Below, piece after piece: positions 3,637 through 17,887 of a stretch of 18,184 nt of DNA. Position numbers and translations under genes: made by a program. The notes under the pieces were generated by a model. It was not told where the DNA came from. It made no database searches and saw nothing but the letters and a program-made list of their open reading frames with translations. The first letter of the stretch is position 1, and each line of letters opens with the position of its first letter. Source of the stretch: Gemmatimonadota bacterium (lineage in GTDB: Bacteria > GCA-2686955); assembly GCA_002686955.1 (NCBI GenBank), contig NYZA01000161.1, positions 1 through 18,184 on the forward strand. Reading direction: 5' to 3'.

Positions 3637-4614
3637 TCAGATCCACCCGAGCATCCCCAAAACCAGCGTCGCCCCGGCGGCAGCCGACAACGGAATCGTG
3701 AAGTTGTCGTCGATCCTCTTGCTCACCAGCTCGGCTAGCGCGGCCAGCACCGAGGCCCCGGCGGCTACCAAGACCGCCGATCCCACTCCGAGCCCACCGT
3801 GGAACACCGATAGAACCGCGAAGGCGGTCACCGACCCGATCACAAAAAATGTGGTGCTACCTTCGAGCGAGCGGCCGTTAATCAAAGAGATTCGACCCCA
3901 GCGTCGCCCGACGATCGCAGCCGCGGGATCGGCCAGAGCGAGGATCGAAACCGCCAGGGCGCAGACCATCGGCGGGCTCGACAGCGCCAGCACCAGAAGT
4001 GCGGTGGCGTACCAGGTGGCGGAGTTGACGCGCAGCCGCTCGTGAGGGTGGATCACGCGCTCGAAGAGCGCCATCAGAACCCGTTGCAGGAACTTGCTGC
4101 GTCGCCGCCCGAGCTCCAGGGTCCAGGCGAGTGCCGCCAGAAGCGCAGCCATCACGACCAGGCCGGTGGGCGGCAGCACCAGCTCGATGAAGATGAGCGC
4201 CGTGACTCCGTTCGCCAGATGGTAGAGATTGCGGGCGTAGTTGGTGGGGCGCAGGCTCGGAACGTGGATCGACCAGGCCTCGAGATCGAAAGAGAGGCTC
4301 GCGTAGGCGTCGACCAGTTGAGAGCGAAAGGCCATCCAGTCGGCGCGTAGCTCGGCAACCTGCACACCGGGGGGGAGGGTCGGCGTGTTCGCGCGCAACA
4401 CCTCGAGCAGCTCGCTGAGGCGCCCGGTCAGCTCAGCTTGCGGATGGCTCTTCGACGCCTCCAATAGGGCCGCCACCCGCTCCTCGACCTCCTCGAGCCG
4501 GGCGCGAAAGGCGGCGGTCAGCTCGGCCTGCCAGACACTCGGATCGAGCTCCTCGAGGAGGCTGTGCAGATCGAGAGCGATCACTTGGGAGTCGAGCGCC
4601 CGGGCGTAGGTCAT
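3637..4614 (-). CDS. Membrane CTP-dependent polyprenol/dolichol-kinase-like protein
   Basis: I choose the ATG at 4614 (MTYARALDSQVIAL) because GAGGA lies 7 nt upstream; the product is 325 aa. Residues 1-115 are soluble and amphipathic, probably coiled coil (RARLEEVEERVAALLEASK, then LSELLEVLRA). From ~125 on it is a multi-pass membrane domain with hallmarks of the dolichol kinase / phytol kinase / CTP-transferase superfamily: NLYHLANGV (about 129-137), a HPHERLRVNSATWYATALL segment (189-207), DPAAAIVGRRWGR (229-241), GRSLEGSTTFF (247-257) and DDNFTIPLSAAAGA (302-315). Such enzymes phosphorylate isoprenoid alcohols or a related lipid using CTP. The substrate is unknown; a diacylglycerol-kinase-like or cytidylyltransferase role is possible. 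The gene is divergent from the large membrane protein at 4774. Confidence 0.75.
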   Translation of the reverse strand: MTYARALDSQVIALDLHSLLEELDPSVWQAELTAAFRARLEEVEERVAALLEASKSHPQAELTGRLSELLEVLRANTPTLPPGVQVAELRADWMAFRSQLVDAYASLSFDLEAWSIHVPSLRPTNYARNLYHLANGVTALIFIELVLPPTGLVVMAALLAALAWTLELGRRRSKFLQRVLMALFERVIHPHERLRVNSATWYATALLVLALSSPPMVCALAVSILALADPAAAIVGRRWGRISLINGRSLEGSTTFFVIGSVTAFAVLSVFHGGLGVGSAVLVAAGASVLAALAELVSKRIDDNFTIPLSAAAGATLVLGMLGWI

Positions 4615-4773
4615 GCGGAATCCTCGTGGGCTCGGCGGCAGGGAGCCGATCGACACAGAACCCAAACTCTAGCAGATCGGCGGAGCCCGGCTCTCCCCGC
4701 GGTCGGTCATCGAGGACCGAAAGGTCTCCGGCGCGAAGTAGACTGATCGTCAACTCGCTCGCAGGAGATGAAA
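4615..4773. other. Divergent intergenic region with inverted repeats
   Basis: These 159 bp separate two divergently transcribed genes and must hold both promoters, although no clear -35/-10 pair is visible. They contain a 7-bp inverted repeat (GCCGATC at 4645-4651, GATCGGC at 4675-4681, 23-nt loop) and a short palindrome GAGCCCGGCTC (4683-4693). Either could be an operator; both are short enough to be chance. Confidence 0.25.
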
Positions 4774-5622
4774 ATGATCCATCGACTCGTCCTGAATCTC
4801 GTCGCCCTGCTCGTGGGCGCTCCCTTTCTCGCGAGCGCCGATCCACTTCCACGCAATCTCGTTCCGGAGCAGCTGGAGGACTGGATCGATTGGGCCCTCT
4901 GGGAGGACGAGAAAGCGATGTGTACGCGGCTCTACGGTGCCGACGAGACACGTTGCGCTTGGCCTTCGAGGTTGGAGCTCCGGGTCGATGACGGTGGCGG
5001 CGAGTTCGAACAGGGGTGGCAATTGGAGCGGGAATCGTTCGTGCCCCTGCCCGGAGACGCCCGGCGGCGCCCGCTCGATGTGCGGGTCGATGGCAATCTG
5101 GCCATTGTGCACCAGCGGGAGGGGAGGCACGGCGTGACCCTGGGGGCCGGGTCCCACGTTCTGCGCGGCAAGTTCGAATGGGGCGAACTGCCCGAAGCGG
5201 TCCGGATTCCCTCCGAAACCGGACTGGTGTCGCTGGAGCTCCGCGGTGACGAGATCGCATTTCCCCACCGTGACGAAGCAGGAAACATCTACCTCCAGAA
5301 GCGTCTCGGCGAGGAGGATTCCACCAACCGACTCGATCTGGTCGTCCAGCGGCGCATCATCGACGAAGTGCCGCTCCTCGTCTTGACTCAGGTCGAGGTT
5401 CGTGTCTCGGGTCGCAACAGGGAAGAGCTGCTCGGTCCCGCGTTGCTCGAAGGCCTCGTTCCGATGTCCCTCCACGCTTCGCTGCCGGCTCGCCTCGAAC
5501 AGGACGGCAAGCTTCGGGTGCAGGTGCGGCCGGGGTCCTGGACATTGAGGCTACTCGCGCGCGATGTTTGGACGCACATCCTCTCTGGGTCTGTCGGACG
5601 GGCCGGCCTGGGTCGAGGATGA
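4774..5622 (+). CDS. N-terminal part of a large exported two-half membrane protein (frame breaks near 5567)
   Basis: Of two nearby ATGs, the one at 4774 has AGGAG (4763-4767) at 6-nt spacing, whereas the ATG at 4768 would abut it; so translation begins MIHRLVLNLVALLVGAPFLASA, a signal peptide with cleavage after ASA. The mature part opens with a Cys-containing helical stretch (C50, C61), then beta-rich sequence with FVPLPGD (89-95), DVRVDGNLAIV, VTLGAGSHVL and VSLELRG. The in-frame end (after LRLLARD) is an artefact of a frame change: the continuation is in the next frame from about 5567, and removing one T from TTT at 5567-5569 joins the two into one smooth protein of about 1355 aa. I recognise the type from unnamed large membrane proteins of Gram-negative bacteria but know no function for it. 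Confidence 0.7.
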   Translation: MIHRLVLNLVALLVGAPFLASADPLPRNLVPEQLEDWIDWALWEDEKAMCTRLYGADETRCAWPSRLELRVDDGGGEFEQGWQLERESFVPLPGDARRRPLDVRVDGNLAIVHQREGRHGVTLGAGSHVLRGKFEWGELPEAVRIPSETGLVSLELRGDEIAFPHRDEAGNIYLQKRLGEEDSTNRLDLVVQRRIIDEVPLLVLTQVEVRVSGRNREELLGPALLEGLVPMSLHASLPARLEQDGKLRVQVRPGSWTLRLLARDVWTHILSGSVGRAGLGRG

Positions 5623-8600
5623 GGTCTGGGTGTTCGATGCCCGCCCGGACCTGCGGATCGTCGATCTCGAAGGGGCCCCCGCCCTCGATCCGCAGCAAAC
5701 TCGATTACCCGACGAATGGAAGGTCTTGCCTGCCTACCGGATGCGTCCAGGCGAGAAACTCGAATTCGTCGAGCACCGCAGGGGGGATTCCGACCCTGCT
5801 CCCGATCAGCTCGATCTGACGCGTCGATTGTGGCTCGATTTCGACGGCGGCGGTTACACGATCGAGGACCGCATCGTCGGAACGCTGAATGCCGGCTGGC
5901 GACTGGTGATGGCGCCGCCCACGCTGCTGGGCCGGGTGGCGGCGGGGGGAAGCGACCAGCTCATCACGCGACTCGATCGAGAAGGAGAGGGGGTTTCGGG
6001 CGTCGAGCTGCGCAGCTCTTCGATCGATATGGTCGCGGAGAGCCGCTACGAGGGTTCGGCAGCCAGCCTTCCGGCGGTTGGCTGGTCTCACGATTTCCGT
6101 TCCGTAGACGCAACATTGAATCTGCCGCCGGGGTGGCGCCTCATCCACGCAAGAGGGGTCGATCAGGTCGAGAACACATGGGTGAATCAGTGGACTCTCC
6201 TGGATCTGTTTCTGATGCTCATTCTCGCCGCGGCGGTAACGCGCTTGTGGGGCTTCCCTTCGGGGGCACTAGCCCTGATAACCCTCGCGTTGACCCTTTC
6301 GGAGCCCGAGGCGCCACGATGGATCTGGGCCTACGTTCTGATCGCCGAAGCTCTGGTGAGAATGCTGCCGGCCGGATCGTTCGCGAACGTGGTTCGCGGC
6401 GCGCGAATGTTGGGCCTTGCGGTTTTGGTCGGGCTCTCGCTTCTATTCGTCGTGCAACAAGGTCTGCACGGCATGTACCCGGCACTGGAGCGGTCCAGCC
6501 CGGCTCGAGGGGGTCCGCCGCCACCTCCGATCACTTCCGCGAGATCGGTTTCTTTCGCGGTGGCTGATCCCGACGCAAGTCCCGAATTCGAGTTGCCGGC
6601 AGAGGGGACGGCCGAGCAGAGAGTTCCACATGCCGCGCCAAGACCCAGGAAGGTCAGCTACGAACAGAAGATTGGGGTCGATCCAAACGCCATCGTTCAA
6701 ACTGGGCCGGGTCTCCCTCATTGGTCATGGGAAGGAGTATCGCTTCATTGGAGCGGTCCGGTTGCACAAGACCAGGTCGTGAGCCTCGCTCTTCTGGGGC
6801 CAGGCATGAACCTAGTCCTCTCGTTCATGCGGATCTTGCTGACGGCTGCACTCGTGCTCGTCACACTCGGCATTGGAGCGCGACGGGGCGGAAGGCGAGG
6901 AGTGGGGAGCGAGGCTGCGGTAGCGGCTGTTCTCTTTGCGCTCCTTTTCGCCCCCGCGGCGGCAGCGGCATCAGAGACCGGGCATGACGGAGTCTCCAAG
7001 CTTGCCTCCCACGACGGGCGTTCGCCGGATCCCGAGTTGCTCGAGGATCTTCGGCGTCGATTGTTGGCGCCGCCCGATTGTGCGCCGAACTGTGCATCGA
7101 TCGGACGAATGCGACTTCAGGCCGACCCCGGTGTTCTGATCCTGCGTCTCGAGGCGCATACGCAGATTCCCACAGCCATCCCTCTTCCGGGCGACCCCCA
7201 AGGCTGGATGCCGACACAAGTGTTGGTGGATGGCACGGAAGCGGAAGCGATGGCGCGCGAAAGAGATGGAACGCTGAGTCTCGCGCTCGCTCGGGGGCGG
7301 CACCAAGTGATGCTGAAGGGGCCCATCTCGACACTCGATGTCGTGCAGATTCCGCTCCCAATGCGCCCCGCACGCGTCGAGGGGAAAGCGCGAGGGGGGA
7401 ATGTGGAGGGAGTGCACGACGACGGCATGGCCGAAACCGATCTGCAGCTCACCCGAATTCGTGCCGGTGGAGAGGGGGAGACGGGCGACCTCGTTTCGGA
7501 GTCGCTGCCGCCCTTTGTCCGCATCGAGCGTTCGATCTCATTGGGACTCGAGTGGAAGGTCGAAACACGTGTGATCCGGGTGACGCCCCTTGGATCGGCC
7601 ATCTTGCTCGCGGTGCCCTTGCTGGCCGGCGAATCGGTCACGACCGAGGGACATCGCGTAGAAGACGGGCGGGTGCAGGTCACTCTGGGAGCGAAAGAAG
7701 GAACCCGGGAATGGTCGTCTCTCTTGGCTCGACAGAGCGTGCTCGCTCTACGGGCTCCCGATTCCACCGAATGGACCGAGACCTGGCGGATCGATTCCAG
7801 CCCGCTCTGGCATGTGGAGTTCCAAGGGATCCCCCCGATCCACGTTCCGAAGGAGGATGTTGCGCGCGAGTGGCGACCCTGGCCGGGAGAGGAGCTGGAA
7901 ATCAGGGTCATGCGCCCGGAGGCGATCTCGGGTCGAAGCATGACGATCGATCACAGCGAGCTCGTCGTTCGCCCTGGGAGTCGGGCGAGCGATGCGACGC
8001 TCGTTCTCACCGTGCGAACGAGCCGAGGCGGTACGCAGTCGATTACTCTGCCCGATGGTGCCCGCGCGCAGAGAGTCCAGGTGGGCGGATCCGAGCAGCC
8101 GATTCGACAGGAAGGGCGAGTTGTATCGATCTCCTTGAAGCCGGGCAAGCAGAAGGTCGCGATCGACTGGAGGGAGCCGGGCGAAATCGGAGCACGTTAC
8201 ACTACCCCCTCGATCGACGTGGGTACCGAGAGCGTCAACGCTGAGATCGAGGTGGAGTTCCCCCCCAGCCGATGGATCCTCTTCGCGAGTCGACGGCAGT
8301 CGGGCCCCGCCGTGCTCTTCTGGAGCTTCTTGGTGATTGCATTCCTGGTGGCGACAGTTTTGGGAAGAAGTCCGTGGACCCCGCTGAGATTCCGCCACTG
8401 GGCGCTTTTGGGGGTTGGCATGACGCAGGCTGAGCTCGTGGTTGCAATGCTCGTGCCGGCGTGGCTCTTCGTCCTGGGATGGCGAAAACGGACTCCCGAT
8501 CTCTCCCCGGGGCGATTCGATCTGCGACAGATTGCGATCGCGATCTTGACTCTGGTTGCGCTCGCCGGACTCTTCGAGTCGGTGCGGCAAGGCTTGCTGA

Positions 8601-8842
8601 GTCAACCCGATATGCAGATTGCGGGGAACGGCTCGGCCGGATCGACACTGCGCTGGTTCATCGACCGCTCCGATCACGCGCTGCCGACCCTTTCGATCGT
8701 GTCGGTGCCGATCCTGTTCTACAGAGGCTTGATGTTGGCATGGGCACTTTGGCTGGCGTCGGCATTGGTCTCTTGGCTTCGGTGGGGATGGGACGCATTC
8801 CAGGAAGGCGGCCTGTGGCGCCGGTTGCGCCGACCCTCATGA
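5564..8842 (+). CDS. Main part of the large exported two-half membrane protein (continues the frame begun at 4774)
   Basis: The frame has no good ribosome site at the ATG at 5564 and starts in mid-domain, so it is best read as the continuation of the gene at 4774 after a +1 shift. Order: beta-rich ectodomain (DEVWVFDARPDLRIVDLEGAPALDPQQTRLPDEW...), several membrane spans from about 6200 to 6460 (LLDLFLMLILAAAVTRLW onward), a proline-rich loop, further spans at about 6815-6880, and a second signal-like segment AAVAAVLFALLFAPAAAA (about 6920-6970). There follows a second ectodomain homologous to the first, then C-terminal spans (AVLFWSFLVIAFLVATVLG, PAWLFVLGWRKR, ILTLVALAGLFESV, LMLAWALWLASALVSWL). 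Function is unknown; a role in envelope assembly or sensing is conceivable. The stop overlaps a downstream ATG as ATGA. Confidence 0.7.
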   Translation: MFGRTSSLGLSDGPAWVEDEVWVFDARPDLRIVDLEGAPALDPQQTRLPDEWKVLPAYRMRPGEKLEFVEHRRGDSDPAPDQLDLTRRLWLDFDGGGYTIEDRIVGTLNAGWRLVMAPPTLLGRVAAGGSDQLITRLDREGEGVSGVELRSSSIDMVAESRYEGSAASLPAVGWSHDFRSVDATLNLPPGWRLIHARGVDQVENTWVNQWTLLDLFLMLILAAAVTRLWGFPSGALALITLALTLSEPEAPRWIWAYVLIAEALVRMLPAGSFANVVRGARMLGLAVLVGLSLLFVVQQGLHGMYPALERSSPARGGPPPPPITSARSVSFAVADPDASPEFELPAEGTAEQRVPHAAPRPRKVSYEQKIGVDPNAIVQTGPGLPHWSWEGVSLHWSGPVAQDQVVSLALLGPGMNLVLSFMRILLTAALVLVTLGIGARRGGRRGVGSEAAVAAVLFALLFAPAAAAASETGHDGVSKLASHDGRSPDPELLEDLRRRLLAPPDCAPNCASIGRMRLQADPGVLILRLEAHTQIPTAIPLPGDPQGWMPTQVLVDGTEAEAMARERDGTLSLALARGRHQVMLKGPISTLDVVQIPLPMRPARVEGKARGGNVEGVHDDGMAETDLQLTRIRAGGEGETGDLVSESLPPFVRIERSISLGLEWKVETRVIRVTPLGSAILLAVPLLAGESVTTEGHRVEDGRVQVTLGAKEGTREWSSLLARQSVLALRAPDSTEWTETWRIDSSPLWHVEFQGIPPIHVPKEDVAREWRPWPGEELEIRVMRPEAISGRSMTIDHSELVVRPGSRASDATLVLTVRTSRGGTQSITLPDGARAQRVQVGGSEQPIRQEGRVVSISLKPGKQKVAIDWREPGEIGARYTTPSIDVGTESVNAEIEVEFPPSRWILFASRRQSGPAVLFWSFLVIAFLVATVLGRSPWTPLRFRHWALLGVGMTQAELVVAMLVPAWLFVLGWRKRTPDLSPGRFDLRQIAIAILTLVALAGLFESVRQGLLSQPDMQIAGNGSAGSTLRWFIDRSDHALPTLSIVSVPILFYRGLMLAWALWLASALVSWLRWGWDAFQEGGLWRRLRRPS

Positions 8843-8905: not shown

Positions 8906-9202
8906 ATGTCGCAATCGTGTTGGCTCTTGGCGCTCGTCCTTCGCTCACGCGGGCAACACGAGGAAGCACGAAAGGCGCTGCAATCGGTAATGAGAATGGC
9001 GACTGAGGAGTTCGACCCGGACTGTCGCGCGACACTTTTCTATCTCGCCTTGCTCGAGCTAGAGCTCGCACGCGAGGCCATCGCGCGCGGGGAGCTTGAC
9101 GAGTATCTGCGACTCACTGAGTTCGCCCGCGATCGGGCCACCCAAGGAGCGGCGCGCGCGCGGAGAAGATTCTTCACGAGCTCGATGCCGGAAGGGCACT
9201 GA
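8906..9202 (+). CDS. TPR-like small protein or gene fragment
   Basis: 98 aa starting MSQSCWLLALVLRSRGQ. The helical pattern LALVLRSRGQHEEARKALQSVM followed by CRATLFYLALLELELAREAIARGELDEYLRL resembles tetratricopeptide repeats, which are protein-interaction scaffolds. The nearest Shine-Dalgarno-like bases (GGGAGG, 8881-8886) are about 19 nt from the ATG, too far. An alternative start at 8839 overlaps the previous stop (ATGA) but lies in another frame; it would reach this one only through an indel, for instance in the run of seven G at 8873-8879. I therefore suspect a decayed or mis-assembled gene. The 3' end overlaps the next reading frame by about 100 bp. Confidence 0.4.
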   Translation: MSQSCWLLALVLRSRGQHEEARKALQSVMRMATEEFDPDCRATLFYLALLELELAREAIARGELDEYLRLTEFARDRATQGAARARRRFFTSSMPEGH

Positions 9203-9863
9203 ATGGACCCTGACCGCGCATTGTTGTCTCGGCATCGGCGAGGAGCCGGCGGTCCCTGATCGCTGGCTCGACGCGCCGGAGCGGATTCGAGTGAATCTTC
9301 GACCCGGTAGCGGCATTTCGGCGGACGACCACCCGTGCTTCCCCGTCGCGAGTTGGGATTTCGAAGGCGACGAAGGGGCAGCGGGCTGGGAGATCCGGAT
9401 CGCCAAGGGGCAAGGTCGAGCAGGGCTTTCCGCCGCCTGGGGGCGAGGGGGGGGAGGGGCGTTTCTTCTCGAATCGGATCGGGAGGGTGCTGAGCTGGAG
9501 GCGCAAACTCGCCTACCCGTTCGACCCGGTGTTCGCTATCGTCTGGAAGCTTGGGTGAAGTCGACGCTCTTGGTACCCGTGGACGCCCGGATCTACGGAA
9601 CTGTGTATCTAGGCGAGTTCAGCGAACTTCACGGTGGCGATCCTGCGCCGCAAAAGAACCGCGGTCTCCTCCGTTGGCATCGAAACCTGCCATGGAGCGA
9701 AGGGGGTAGCGACGATTGGGTACCGATCCGCTACGAGTTCGAAACATCGTCGCGCACGCGCGGGCTGCGTCTCGGAGCGGCGCTAGGAAAGCGGGGAAAG
9801 ACCCAGGGGAGCTTGCTCTTTGACGATGTACGTCTATCTCAGAGTCTCGTTGAATGGGAAGAA
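9096..9863 (+). pseudogene. Carbohydrate-binding jelly-roll-like domain, 5' part of a disrupted sulfatase gene
   Basis: The only start codon available is a TTG at 9096 without a ribosome site, and recognisable protein begins near 9280 (ERIRVNLRPGSGI). The sequence then reads as a CBM4/9-like beta-sandwich: ASWDFEGDEGAAGWEI, LEAQTRLPVRPGVRYRLEAWVKSTL, a middle with YLGEF and WVPIRYEFET, and the typical end GSLLFDDVRL. Such domains precede sulfatase domains in some secreted or envelope sulfatases. After VRLSQSLVEWEEDPE the frame carries on as meaningless sequence to 10052, while a sulfatase continues in another frame from 9854. This is best read as the N-terminal accessory domain of one broken gene. 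Confidence 0.5.
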
Positions 9864-10807
9864 GATCCCGAGTCCGGGACCGATTCCGAGCCTCGCGGGC
9901 CATCGAATGGGTGGAAGAGAACCAAGGAGCTCCGTTTTTTCTCTGGCTGCACGTTTGGGATCCGCATTTTCGATATGTACCTCCCGCCCCTTGGGACGAT
10001 GCCTTCGCGCCGCCCGGTGGCGGCAGCAACTTCGATCTCTACGAGCGGCTGAGCCGGCGGGAGCTCTCTCTTGGTGAGGTCTTTTTCCAGAGCTCACTGA
10101 ACGCCGAGGGGCTGCCCCGGGCAATCTCTCTCTACGACGCGGAGATTCGCTATACCGACCAGATCGTCGGTGAGTTCCTCGAGCGTCTTCGCGCCCTGGA
10201 GCTGATCGACAGCGCGATGATCGTGCTGGCGTCGGACCATGGGGAGAGCCTCGGAGAACATGATCTCTATTTCGAACACGGCGAGTACCTCTATGAGCCG
10301 ACCCTGCGAATCCCTCTGCTGGTCCATTTCCCGGGCGGTACGGGCGGAGGCGCCCGGGTGGACGAGCTTGCATCGATCACGGATATCTATCCCACCGTGC
10401 TTGGCGCGGTTGGCCTGGACCGCGATCTCCCGGGTCGGAATCTCGATCCTCGTGCGCGCGAACCGCCCCCCCCGGTGCTGCTCGCCGAGACCGGTCGGAA
10501 CTTCTACGCGGAGGATCCCCGCCGCCCCGTGCCCGGGATCGCCGGGAACTGGCTCTGCGCCATTTCCGGGGAATGGAAGCTGATCCGCATTCCAAGCGAT
10601 ACCGGTTTTGATTGCGAACTCTACGATCTGAGCGAAGATCCGTCGGAGTCCCACAACCTCTACAGCCCGCACGACACGATCGCACGTCGACTCGAGGCGG
10701 AAATCGAGCAGTGGATCGGATCCTTTTCGCCCTCCGATGGGGCGATGGACGAGTCTCTGGATCCGGCAACCGCCGCCCGCCTCCGGGCTCTTGGCTATTT
10801 GGACTGA
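9854..10807 (+). pseudogene. C-terminal half of a sulfatase (alkaline-phosphatase superfamily), catalytic N-terminal half missing
   Basis: 317 codons. The opening ~15 residues (Arg-rich) look like junction sequence; homology starts at AIEWVEENQGAPFFLWLHVWDPH (about 16-38). Family landmarks of the second half follow: SLYDAEIRYTDQIVGEFLERL (92-112), the metal-site segment ASDHGESLGEHD with D128 and H129, EHGEYLYEPTLRIPLLVHFPG (141-161), SITDIYPTVLGAVGL, and the end LRALGYLD. The first half of a sulfatase, with the C/S-x-P-x-R nucleophile motif and the LISIDTLRADHL-type metal motif, does not occur in any frame upstream, where a carbohydrate-binding-like domain is found instead. A deletion of roughly 200 codons plus a frame change near 9854-9899 explains this. 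The product should lack sulfatase activity. Confidence 0.65.
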
Positions 10808-10952
10808 CACTCCGGTCGGCCGCTACGGCTGAACCCGATTGTGCGAAAATGTCCGATCTTGATGAAACGCGATCGGCATTTCCGCCCGACTTGCAGCACA
10901 TCCACTCTCCTCCCCGCTCCGCACGGCGATTCAAGAACAGGGAGCTTCGATC

Positions 10953-14813: not shown

Positions 14814-15225
14814 TGGCACCCACTCTGGTCGCGATCTTCCCGCATCGGCCGCGGTCGGATATGTATGCCGTCGCCGACAAGGAAACGCCGACAGATTCAG
14901 ATCGGTATCAGCTCACTGCTCCAAGCCCCCCTCGATGATAGAGGAAACCTCGCTGGAACCGACTTTTCGATAAGAGAGAATTCCCGCAGGACCGAGCACT
15001 GACCGGCGGGCAACCGCATTTCGCAGCCAGGCCCGCCCAGTGGCTCCGCATGCCCGAACGCGACGCCCTCTCTGCGCCTCGATCGATGCAGTTCGGCATG
15101 CGCCCCACCTCGCACGCGCACGAGCTCACTTGAAGTGATTCTTGTGCGAACTCTACGGAACCTCCATTGACACGCCAGAGGTGCGGGGTCACCATGGGAA
15201 GAACTTGAAAGCGAGGTCGGAAGCG
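14814..15225. other. Intergenic region holding dispersed repeat B; no gene seen
   Basis: These 412 bp contain no convincing reading frame. They hold repeat copy B and its inverted-repeat tail (14996-15101). A TTGACA at 15167-15172 matches a -35 box but lacks a -10 at the right distance. The promoter of the downstream beta-helix pair must lie here but is not clear. Confidence 0.5.
14996..15101. repeat. Dispersed repeat, copy B, with long inverted-repeat tail
   Basis: Positions 14996-15058 match copy A (3488-3550) at 51 of 63 bases without gaps. The end of the match (GCATGCCCGAAC, 15048-15059) pairs with GTTCGGCATGC (15091-15101), leaving one bulged base and a 31-nt loop. Copy A has a shorter, degenerate version of this tail. 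The layout suggests a small non-autonomous intergenic element or structured RNA. Confidence 0.6.
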
Positions 15226-16641
15226 ATGCGCTACTCATCGGATGTTCTCTTCGGTCTTCTCGCGGCGGCGCTGTGCGGGTCGCCATGTTCAATCGCCGAC
15301 ACGATCGATGTTCCAGGCGATTTCGCCTCGATCGCGGCCGCTATGGACGCCGCCGTCGACGGAGATCTCGTGTTGGTTGCTCCCGGCACCTATCTGGAGG
15401 GGGAGCTGAACTTCGCCGGCAAGAAGATCACCGTCTCGGGAACAGCTCCCGACGACAGCGTGGTCGTCGAGGCGACGGTCGTGGAAGCGCAAGGCGAACG
15501 GGCCGTGGTCTTTTCGAGCGGTGAGGACACGCTCTCGATCTTGAGGGGAATCGCGCTGAGGGGGTCGCCTCCCCTCCTCACCGCCTTGACCGTTGCCGCC
15601 GGATCGCGACCCGTCGTCGATCGCTGCTTGCTGGTGGGGAGCTATTGGTACGACTCGCATCGTGGCATCGATGTCGACGGCGCTGCGATCGAGCTCCGCG
15701 GTTGCCGAATCCGGGAGTTCCAGGTAGGGAGCAAGGGAGCTGGTATCTCTCTTTCCGAATCAACCGCCAGGATCGTCGGCTGCCGCATCGAGTCGAATAT
15801 CACTCAAGGTGACGGGGCCGGCATTCTGGCTGAGGATTCTTCGGTCCAAATCGTAGACACCGTGATTCGAGATAACATAACCATCGATGAAGGTCGTGAA
15901 GGTGGCGGCATCGCGGCCTTTCGGAGCAGATTCGATATCAGGAACTCCCGCATCGTTGGGAATCAGTCCGTGACTATCAGCTGTTCCGGTGGGGGAATGA
16001 GTCTCGGCCGGTCTGAGGCACTACTCGTGGGGTGTGCGATCGACAACAACCACGCGGAAGGATTGGGCGGCGGAATCCTCTCGTTGCATTCCCGACTGCA
16101 CATGATTGGGTGCACAGTGAACGACAACGACGCCTGGGATGGTGGCGACGCGATCTACGGCAGTGGCGTCGCTCTTCTCGAGTCGTGTGTAGTCATTGGG
16201 GGCGAATCCGGTCGCAGTAGCGCCATCAGATGGCGAGGCGTATACTTGCTCCTCCAGAACTGCACAGTCGCGGGAAACACCTCCAACTCAGATGCCGCAT
16301 TGGAAATCGTTACAGGACGATCCTGGATCCGCAACACCATCCTCTACGACAACAGTCCTTCGTCTCTCGATTGGGACGAGCTCCCTCCAACCGTCGTCTA
16401 TTCCAACATCGAAGGCGGTTGGCCTGGAGCCGGCAACATCGATGCGGATCCGCACTTTTTCAGCGCCGCGGGCTTCGACGTCCTGCTGCGCCCCGGCTCA
16501 CCCTGTATCGACACCGGCACCCCGAATCTCGAAGACGCGCTCCATGACGGCGCTCCGCGATGGCCGGACGGACTACCGAACGGGCCCCGTTCGGACATGG
16601 GTGCGTATGGAGGGCCGGAGAACGGCTCTTGGTGGCGGTGA
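15226..16641 (+). CDS. Secreted right-handed parallel beta-helix protein (paralogue 1)
   Basis: Start at ATG 15226 (MRYSSDVLFGLLAAALCGSPCSIA, a signal peptide), with GAGG at 15213-15216; 471 aa. The mature protein begins TIDVPGDFASIAAAMDAAVDGDLVLVAPGTYLEG, the classic first turn of a pectate-lyase-like/NosD-type beta helix. It continues as ~20-25-residue coils with repeating 'GGGI...S.......C.I..N.A' units, for example GAGILAEDSSVQIVDTVIRDN and GGGILSLHSRLHMIGCTVNDN. It ends with a block NIDADPHF...SPCIDTGTP...SDMGAYGGPENG shared with its neighbour. No catalytic residues of a lyase or hydrolase could be identified, so binding or adhesion is as likely as polysaccharide cleavage. The next gene starts 34 bp downstream, so the two form an operon. 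Confidence 0.85.
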   Translation: MRYSSDVLFGLLAAALCGSPCSIADTIDVPGDFASIAAAMDAAVDGDLVLVAPGTYLEGELNFAGKKITVSGTAPDDSVVVEATVVEAQGERAVVFSSGEDTLSILRGIALRGSPPLLTALTVAAGSRPVVDRCLLVGSYWYDSHRGIDVDGAAIELRGCRIREFQVGSKGAGISLSESTARIVGCRIESNITQGDGAGILAEDSSVQIVDTVIRDNITIDEGREGGGIAAFRSRFDIRNSRIVGNQSVTISCSGGGMSLGRSEALLVGCAIDNNHAEGLGGGILSLHSRLHMIGCTVNDNDAWDGGDAIYGSGVALLESCVVIGGESGRSSAIRWRGVYLLLQNCTVAGNTSNSDAALEIVTGRSWIRNTILYDNSPSSLDWDELPPTVVYSNIEGGWPGAGNIDADPHFFSAAGFDVLLRPGSPCIDTGTPNLEDALHDGAPRWPDGLPNGPRSDMGAYGGPENGSWWR

Positions 16642-16675
16642 CAACCAACCAGAAAACCCGACGGAGAATCCCGAG

Positions 16676-17887
16676 ATGCCCCCAAACAACCGCCGATCCG
16701 CGGGATCGATCGTACTCGCCCTCGCGGCAGTGGACCTCATGGTCGCACCCGCCACCACTCTTCGCGTTCCCGGTGACTACGGAACGATCCAGCCCGCACT
16801 TGCCGCCGCGTTCGCGGGCGATACCGTGCTCGTGGCGCCCGGCACATATTCCGGCTCCGGGAACAACACTCTCGATTTTCTCGGCAAAGACCTGGTGCTG
16901 CTCGGGGAGGGCGGCGCCGCAGCCACCAAGATCGAATGCGGCGGAGCGCCCCACGGAATTGCGCTCTCATCGGGCGAAACCCGCGCCGCGGTGATCGAGG
17001 GGTTTACGGTGCGCGGCGCCGATAACCGCGATGCCGGAGGCGGAATCGTTCTCACATTCCAGGCTTCGCCGACGATACGAGGTTGCGTGGTCGAACACAA
17101 CCGCACCGATTTCTATGGCGCGGGATTCTATGTTGCTTCAGGGGCCTCTCCCCTGATTGAAAACTGTATCATTCGCGACAATATGGCTGACGGTCGCGCA
17201 GGCCGCGGGGGCGGCATTCTTTGCTCCTCCTCTGAAGCGGAGATCGTGCACTGCTTGATCGAACGCAACTTCGCGCACCTGAGCGGCGGCGGCATCCACT
17301 GCTGGTCCGCGTCACCGACTCTGCGCGGCTGTGTGATACGGAGCAACGAAGCCGACATCCGCGCAGGCGGTGTCTACTGCAAAGTCGAGTCTTCGCCCCT
17401 GCTCGAGAATTGCGTAATCCAGGACAATCAAAGCGCGCTCGGAGGAGCCTCCTACTGCTATGTCAATTGCACACCTACGTTCGTCAACTGTGTCATCACT
17501 GGAAACAGGGCCACCGAAACGGCTGGAGGGATCTTCTGCCACGTCACGTCTCAGCCGACTCTGACGAACTGTATCCTGTGGGACGACGAACCTGGAGAGA
17601 TCGTTCTGAGTGGAGCGGAACCGATAGTTCGGTATTGCAACATCGAGGGCGGCTGGAGCGGAGAAGGGAACATCGACGCGGATCCGCGCTTCGTCTCCTA
17701 TCGTGGTTTCGATCTGTTGCTCGCTCCCGCCTCGCCCTGCGTGGATGTGGGCGACCCAACGCTCGAAGACGCGATATACGATTCCGATCCTCGGTGGCCG
17801 GCTTTCTACACCAATGCAGCGCGCTCCGATATTGGGGCTTACGGCGGTCCGAGAAACGGCATTTGGGTCGAAGATCTGGGATTCTAA
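16676..17887 (+). CDS. Secreted right-handed parallel beta-helix protein (paralogue 2)
   Basis: ATG at 16676 with GGAG (16663-16666) 9 nt upstream; 403 aa. The signal peptide is MPPNNRRSAGSIVLALAAVD... and the mature part opens LRVPGDYGTIQPALAAAFAGDTVLVAPGTYSG, as in paralogue 1. Coils with regular Cys and Asn positions follow, such as GGGIVLTFQASPTIRGCVVEHN, GGGILCSSSEAEIVHCLIERN and GGGIHCWSASPTLRGCVIRSN. The C-terminal block NIEGGWSGEGNIDADPRF...SPCVDVGDP...SDIGAYGGPRNG matches paralogue 1 closely, and the protein ends soon after with no FlgD/T9SS-type sorting domain. Role unknown; extracellular or surface. Its TAA overlaps, tail to tail, the stop codon of the remnant gene on the minus strand. 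Confidence 0.85.
   Translation: MPPNNRRSAGSIVLALAAVDLMVAPATTLRVPGDYGTIQPALAAAFAGDTVLVAPGTYSGSGNNTLDFLGKDLVLLGEGGAAATKIECGGAPHGIALSSGETRAAVIEGFTVRGADNRDAGGGIVLTFQASPTIRGCVVEHNRTDFYGAGFYVASGASPLIENCIIRDNMADGRAGRGGGILCSSSEAEIVHCLIERNFAHLSGGGIHCWSASPTLRGCVIRSNEADIRAGGVYCKVESSPLLENCVIQDNQSALGGASYCYVNCTPTFVNCVITGNRATETAGGIFCHVTSQPTLTNCILWDDEPGEIVLSGAEPIVRYCNIEGGWSGEGNIDADPRFVSYRGFDLLLAPASPCVDVGDPTLEDAIYDSDPRWPAFYTNAARSDIGAYGGPRNGIWVEDLGF

Follow-up and report, generated by a model that had tools for sequence, protein, structure and literature searches.

Tandem duplication of an exported membrane module, with an internal segment resembling a signal peptide and a ribophorin-I-like predicted fold, in a widespread bacterial protein family

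What does a bacterium make from a gene that seems to carry the same exported membrane module twice? The question is raised by a gene at 4768-8842 on the forward strand of contig NYZA01000161.1 (GenBank assembly GCA_002686955.1, Gemmatimonadota bacterium), of which the 18,184-nucleotide stretch analysed here is called the window. The gene encodes a protein of ~1,357 aa once its two reading frames are joined, and it is broken by a frameshift in this metagenome-assembled genome (MAG). The initial annotation, made from the sequence without database searches, proposed two homologous halves (here half A and half B), each with its own signal-like segment, born when a complete gene for an exported membrane protein was duplicated and fused long ago. 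The sequence marks that it named are all present: in half A the cysteines C52/C63 (numbered C50/C61 in the annotation, whose count starts at the second ATG, 4774) with FVPLPGD, VRVDG, VTLGAGSHVL, and EVWVFDARPDLRIVDLEGAP, and in half B DCAPNC at 7076, AIPLPGD at 7175, VLVDG at 7220, and ETWRIDS at 7778. The window protein has only four cysteines, one pair per half. Both pairs are conserved in 84-85 of the 86 family members used for counting motifs, signals and cysteines (79 for the N-terminal signal), and they could be disulfides within the mature N-terminal arms.

Halves A and B derive from an ancient duplication and fusion of one exported module, and little doubt attaches to this conclusion. 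Profile-profile alignment of the two halves (hhalign) gives 98.6-98.8% probability with E-values of 1e-15 to 1e-16 (best 1.2e-16) over 503-521 colinear columns, and the reversed-profile control gives 0.5%. The match of 503 columns spans the signal and the beta region and runs into the transmembrane (TM) helices. Moreover, the half-B profile also picks up half A within the same open reading frame (ORF) in several genomes. Domain by domain, the first beta domains (D1) of A and B match at 97.3% and the second (D2) at 83.5%. D1 and the third domain (D3) inside half B also match each other (90%), so the beta domains look like still older repeats. The proposed duplication is thus borne out by the alignment of the halves, the domain-wise matches, and the structural models.

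In the AlphaFold2 models of the two halves, with a predicted local distance difference test (pLDDT) score of 84.4 for half A and 89.1 for half B, the elements come in one and the same order. A signal helix leads into three beta-sandwiches, four TM helices follow, and then come a beta-hairpin and, last, a fifth TM helix. Since the frameshift breaks the window copy, the relative L009 stands in for it in the model of half A, which has an extra disordered linker ahead of the hairpin. The M1-aminopeptidase-like match of half B spans residues 345-603 with only ~149 of them aligned, so the M1-like domain is made of D3 together with the hairpin that follows TM4. The TM bundle would therefore sit within the third beta-sandwich in these models. 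CreD has an N-terminal hydrophobic segment, a periplasmic beta region, and several TM helices, a layout like that of a single module here; kinship with CreD (PF06123) was rejected, as hhalign finds no profile similarity (0.1% with either half).

The segment that opens half B has the conserved marks of a cleavable signal. A small-x-Ala motif ([AVST]xA) lies within ten residues of the conserved P..LL.EL..RL helix at the start of half B in 72 of the 86 members, and at the same distance in 50 of them. Proline is common at positions -7/-6, the residues at -2 vary, and a net-positive stretch precedes the hydrophobic core in 76/86. A strict signal test, requiring a hydrophobic core, a small residue at -3, Ala at -1, a helix breaker at -7 to -4, and a polar start, is passed by the internal segment in 75/86 members, by the N-terminal signal in 54/79, and by each of the ten other TM helices in 0-12/86. 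A laxer count of cleavage sites is uninformative, with TM1 of half A scoring 83/86. The polar mature side and the helix breaker were added after the lax result was seen, and the strict counts are to be weighed together with the positional frequencies. To judge by these residues, the conserved internal segment looks like a signal-peptidase-I substrate and not like a leftover TM helix. The claim that each half has its own signal-like segment is therefore literally right, and the second segment goes beyond a TM helix in being of canonical signal-peptidase-I type. Because of this signal, a polyprotein cut into two homologous subunits is proposed, and cleavage mid-way along the chain during export is rather probable as a prediction. 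FbcH, the precursor of cytochromes b and c1, is a bacterial polyprotein with an internal signal peptide. The present family would resemble it in having one chain that a second, internal signal-peptidase-type signal splits into two membrane subunits. The products of FbcH, however, are not related to each other; those of the present family would be homologues born by duplication, and their cleavage is a predicted one.

The top PDB match for both halves is ribophorin I/Ost1 (Foldseek E-values of 6.2e-8 for half A and 1.4e-10 for half B), and alignment by VIA gives Z 12.8 over 271 residues and Z 16.2 over 275 residues, respectively. The next fold match is the N-terminal domain of M1 aminopeptidases, with Z 13.6 and 2.8 Å over 149 residues for half B and Z 11.4 for half A. 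Ost1 is reported to have two similar luminal beta domains and one TM helix, and to bind glycosylated peptides (PMC7226087). Like ribophorin I/Ost1, the family has beta domains in tandem on the exported side and a TM helix after them, and both lack a catalytic motif. On the other hand, the family has an extra N-terminal beta domain and four more TM helices inserted in D3, and its module is duplicated, bacterial, and without a sequence match or a link to STT3. Pfam scans (E <= 0.1) find no Ribophorin_I (PF04597) match among 115 half sequences. Similarly, D3 with its hairpin shares the fold of the M1 N-terminal domain (PF17900), whereas the zinc-peptidase signatures HExxH and GxMEN are absent in all 86 members. 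On the models, ribophorin I and M1 are matters of structural likeness and not of membership.

The family is absent from Pfam and NCBIfam yet widespread. No convincing Pfam family was found for half A (57 members) or half B (58 members), and no significant match among NCBIfam or PDB-sequence profiles; the literature searched describes neither the family nor a bacterial likeness to Ost1. Single-sequence scans of genome-contig and viral-contig collections found no relative. The family was opened up by one plasmid relative, a 'hypothetical protein' on plasmid pAZKH of Azoarcus sp. KH32C, and by a broad genome search. A genome scan gave 531 candidate stretches encoding a relative, of which 80 loci were kept for comparison; the collection thus holds at least 531 relatives, at about one copy per genome. 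By record title they come from Myxococcota, gammaproteobacterial methanotrophs, relatives of Beggiatoa, Desulfobacterota, Acidobacteria, and one Elusimicrobia MAG. In the phylum of genome G248, 71 of 235 genomes carry the family, nearly always as one copy, and among 386 diverse bacteria nine have a half-B profile match, one of them marginal. A match in G287 (E 0.0097) falls on a D3-like stretch of a 1588-aa ORF. A second, diverged copy, cut by the contig end, occurs in one genome (G084, L173:2811-6053). Another genome (G220, L174:6772-7092) retains only a C-terminal remnant of ~100 aa adjoining a transposase-like fragment, a sign of ongoing gene loss in some lineages. The patchy presence and this transposase-flanked remnant suggest an accessory gene.

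Two further things that the initial annotation named as worth searching for did not turn up. Searches with the half-B profile in the 386 diverse bacterial genomes, the 235 genomes of the phylum, and 10 carrier genomes yielded no single-half gene; the short ORFs inspected trace to contig ends, to a MAG frameshift (G571), or to the insertion-damaged remnant in G220. No conserved partner gene stands beside the family loci. Only in methanotrophs (e.g. L037, L048, and L069) does a gene that we take from its sequence to be Mpl-like (murein ligase) lie upstream at 9 loci, and one that we take to be TrmN6-like (methyltransferase) downstream at 8.

The window copy is split over two ORFs, which are joinable only via a one-base shift (Table 1). 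The break must lie within the interval given there, because it is bounded by stop codons, at 5546-5548 in frame 2 and at 5620-5622 in frame 1. Dropping one T from the run at 5567-5569 fuses the frames into a sequence alignable with the relatives, whose full length is 1,364-1,463 aa. In the 80 kept loci the gene lies in a single frame, except for one other apparent frameshift (L033) and truncations at contig ends; the frameshift is thus private to the window copy, where the break is an assembly error or a recent mutation. Another MAG copy (G571, L161:3774-8008) also has a frameshift, which falls elsewhere in the gene and splits it; such frameshifts therefore do arise in MAG copies of this long gene.

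Table 1. Parts of the duplicated gene, in window coordinates
Feature	Position	Strand	Basis
First ORF (frame 1, 284 aa): signal peptide, D1, most of D2 of half A, then out-of-frame residues past the frameshift	4768..5622	+	
N-terminal signal peptide of half A, ...FLASA/DPL	4768..4839	+	sequence; hydropathy; strict signal test (54/79 members)
Conserved cysteine pair C52/C63, half A (85/86 members)	4921..4956	+	
Frameshift-bearing interval; likeliest one extra base in the T run 5567-5569	5549..5619	+	stop positions in frames 1 and 2; relatives single-frame
Second ORF (frame 2, 1092 aa): remainder of half A and entire half B	5564..8842	+	
D3 of half A, third beta domain, like M1 N-terminal domain	5726..6160	+	AlphaFold2 and fold match of relative, mapped via alignment
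TM helices 1-4, half A	6182..6460	+	hydropathy; AlphaFold2
TGPGxPxW beta-hairpin completing D3, then TM helix 5, half A	6713..6890	+	hydropathy; AlphaFold2; fold match
Putative internal signal peptide opening half B, VAAVLFALLFAPAAAAA	6899..6970	+	conserved cleavage pattern; strict signal test
D1 of half B, beta domain, cysteine pair at 7079-7093	7070..7456	+	AlphaFold2; profile match; cysteine conservation
D2 of half B, beta domain	7511..7828	+	AlphaFold2; profile match
D3 of half B, beta domain, like M1 N-terminal domain	7865..8290	+	AlphaFold2; fold match
TM helices 1-4, half B	8318..8599	+	AlphaFold2
GNGS beta-hairpin completing D3, then TM helix 5, half B	8645..8803	+	AlphaFold2; fold match

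Taken together, the explanation that fits best, and which we hold to be somewhat better than even, is a duplicated module with internal cleavage, a heterodimer, and a polymer-holding scaffold. One gene would yield two complete homologous inner-membrane modules in tandem, each exported and each made of a Sec signal, a cysteine pair, three periplasmic beta-sandwiches, four TM helices, the hairpin that completes D3, and the fifth TM helix. As TM5 of half A is predicted to end in the cytoplasm, the internal segment would serve on entry into the membrane as another signal, and half B would have its beta region exported as half A has. We infer that the chain is then cut mid-way into two periplasm-facing subunits of five TM helices each, in a 1:1 ratio, and that these pair as a pseudo-symmetric heterodimer. 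The beta-saddles of this heterodimer may bind and hold an extended polymer, either an exported polypeptide or a glycan, at the membrane surface, and the complex would serve as a scaffold without enzymatic activity, much as ribophorin I/Ost1 does. The non-enzymatic reading is adopted because M1-type catalytic motifs and conserved neighbours are both lacking, and co-occurrence with STT3 and with exosortase is at chance level. The scaffold and client-binding role itself, drawn by likeness to Ost1, is tentative, with perhaps one chance in a few of being right.

Other explanations of the two halves differ in how much of this they dispute. Under one of them, there was no gene duplication at all, and beta-sandwich repeats and TM helices of common kinds grew alike by convergence. 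This reading could appeal to the weak match of D3 alone (26.7%), the insignificant one of the TM block alone (1.4%), and a single-sequence likeness at the margin of detection (E 0.016 in BLASTP between half B and the part of half A that lies in frame 2); it is barely credible against ~500 colinear columns that include the signal, three beta domains, and TM region, against the pairing of each A domain with its equivalent B domain as best partner, and against the identical predicted order of elements. A duplicated chain might also stay whole as a single-chain pseudo-dimer, in which the internal segment remains in the membrane, giving the mature chain 11 TM helices, and the fusion does no more than ensure joint assembly of both halves. 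The halves do remain fused in every intact relative inspected, and in some members the internal segment is long enough for a membrane span. What makes this the less likely outcome, at under one chance in three, is that the small -3 residue, Ala -1, helix breaker, and polar start are kept where the residues between them vary, and that the ten other TM helices lack this pattern. A comparable, minor probability is given to the window gene being a pseudogene, its copy without function in the source organism: its frame is broken, genome G220 has only the C-terminal remnant beside a transposase-like fragment, and the adjoining sulfatase gene likewise looks incomplete. Both window ORFs are nevertheless otherwise open across ~4 kb, with ~48% identity to relatives in the alignment, and the shift is compatible with a one-base homopolymer error in a MAG of 270 contigs (84.5% complete; the window is contig 161).

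The top match to ribophorin I/Ost1 in both halves could instead mean a shared pathway, with the protein serving as a subunit of a bacterial glycosylation machine like the oligosaccharyltransferase (OST) or of an exosortase protein-sorting machine. This is improbable. Across the 235 genomes, the family occurs together with STT3 in 15 genomes against 17.8 expected (p 0.41) and with exosortase in 21 against 22.1 expected (p 0.88); STT3 is missing from most carrier genomes, 13 carriers show no Ribophorin_I match at E <= 10, and the conserved neighbours include no glycosylation genes. The scaffold proposal preferred here is itself weakened by the same null co-occurrences and missing sequence match, as well as by the lack of a conserved partner gene and by hhalign finding no profile match to PF17900. 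The Ost1 alignments have a large root-mean-square deviation (12-25 Å), so the agreement is domain-wise only. In addition, an advantage of separate chains might predict genomes with the halves as separate genes, and none was found. That the proposal holds in its entirety is speculative, at about one chance in five: a widespread family of polyproteins processed by signal peptidase would then give, from one gene, a ribophorin-I-like heterodimer that holds clients in the periplasm as a scaffold, and bacteria would have a counterpart of the Ost1 architecture outside glycosylation.

Elsewhere in the window, a sulfatase-like gene follows downstream (9063-10810). Its C-terminal part is open at 9854-10807 (PF00884, SGSH_C). 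The N-terminal catalytic part, by contrast, is either absent or in another frame, and Pfam finds nothing in the ORF that precedes the open part (9063-10052); a frameshift or an internal deletion seems to have hit the gene. Parallel beta-helix proteins (PF13229) are encoded in tandem at 15142-16641 and 16196-17887; the two have similar C-terminal blocks, ending ...SDIGAYGGPRNG and ...SDMGAYGGPENG, and are apparently another local duplication. Divergently transcribed from the main gene is a 342-aa membrane protein (3637-4665, reverse strand) with no Pfam hit at E 0.01, whose C-terminal half may resemble a membrane domain of the dolichol-kinase/CTP-transferase type. Scans of the window for tRNAs and Rfam families found nothing.

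An envelope protein of ~1,400 aa, carried by 71/235 genomes of one phylum and hit at least 531 times in the collection, thus stands outside Pfam and NCBIfam and without an assigned role. To the reading of duplication and fusion, the analysis adds the cleavable-looking internal signal and the ribophorin-I-like fold. In this family the idea of a cellular bacterial polyprotein that carries an internal signal peptide can be cleanly tested, as can that of a duplicated gene whose two products may have become an obligate heterodimer. The match to ribophorin I, moreover, asks whether the fold of a non-catalytic OST subunit occurs in bacteria outside glycosylation.

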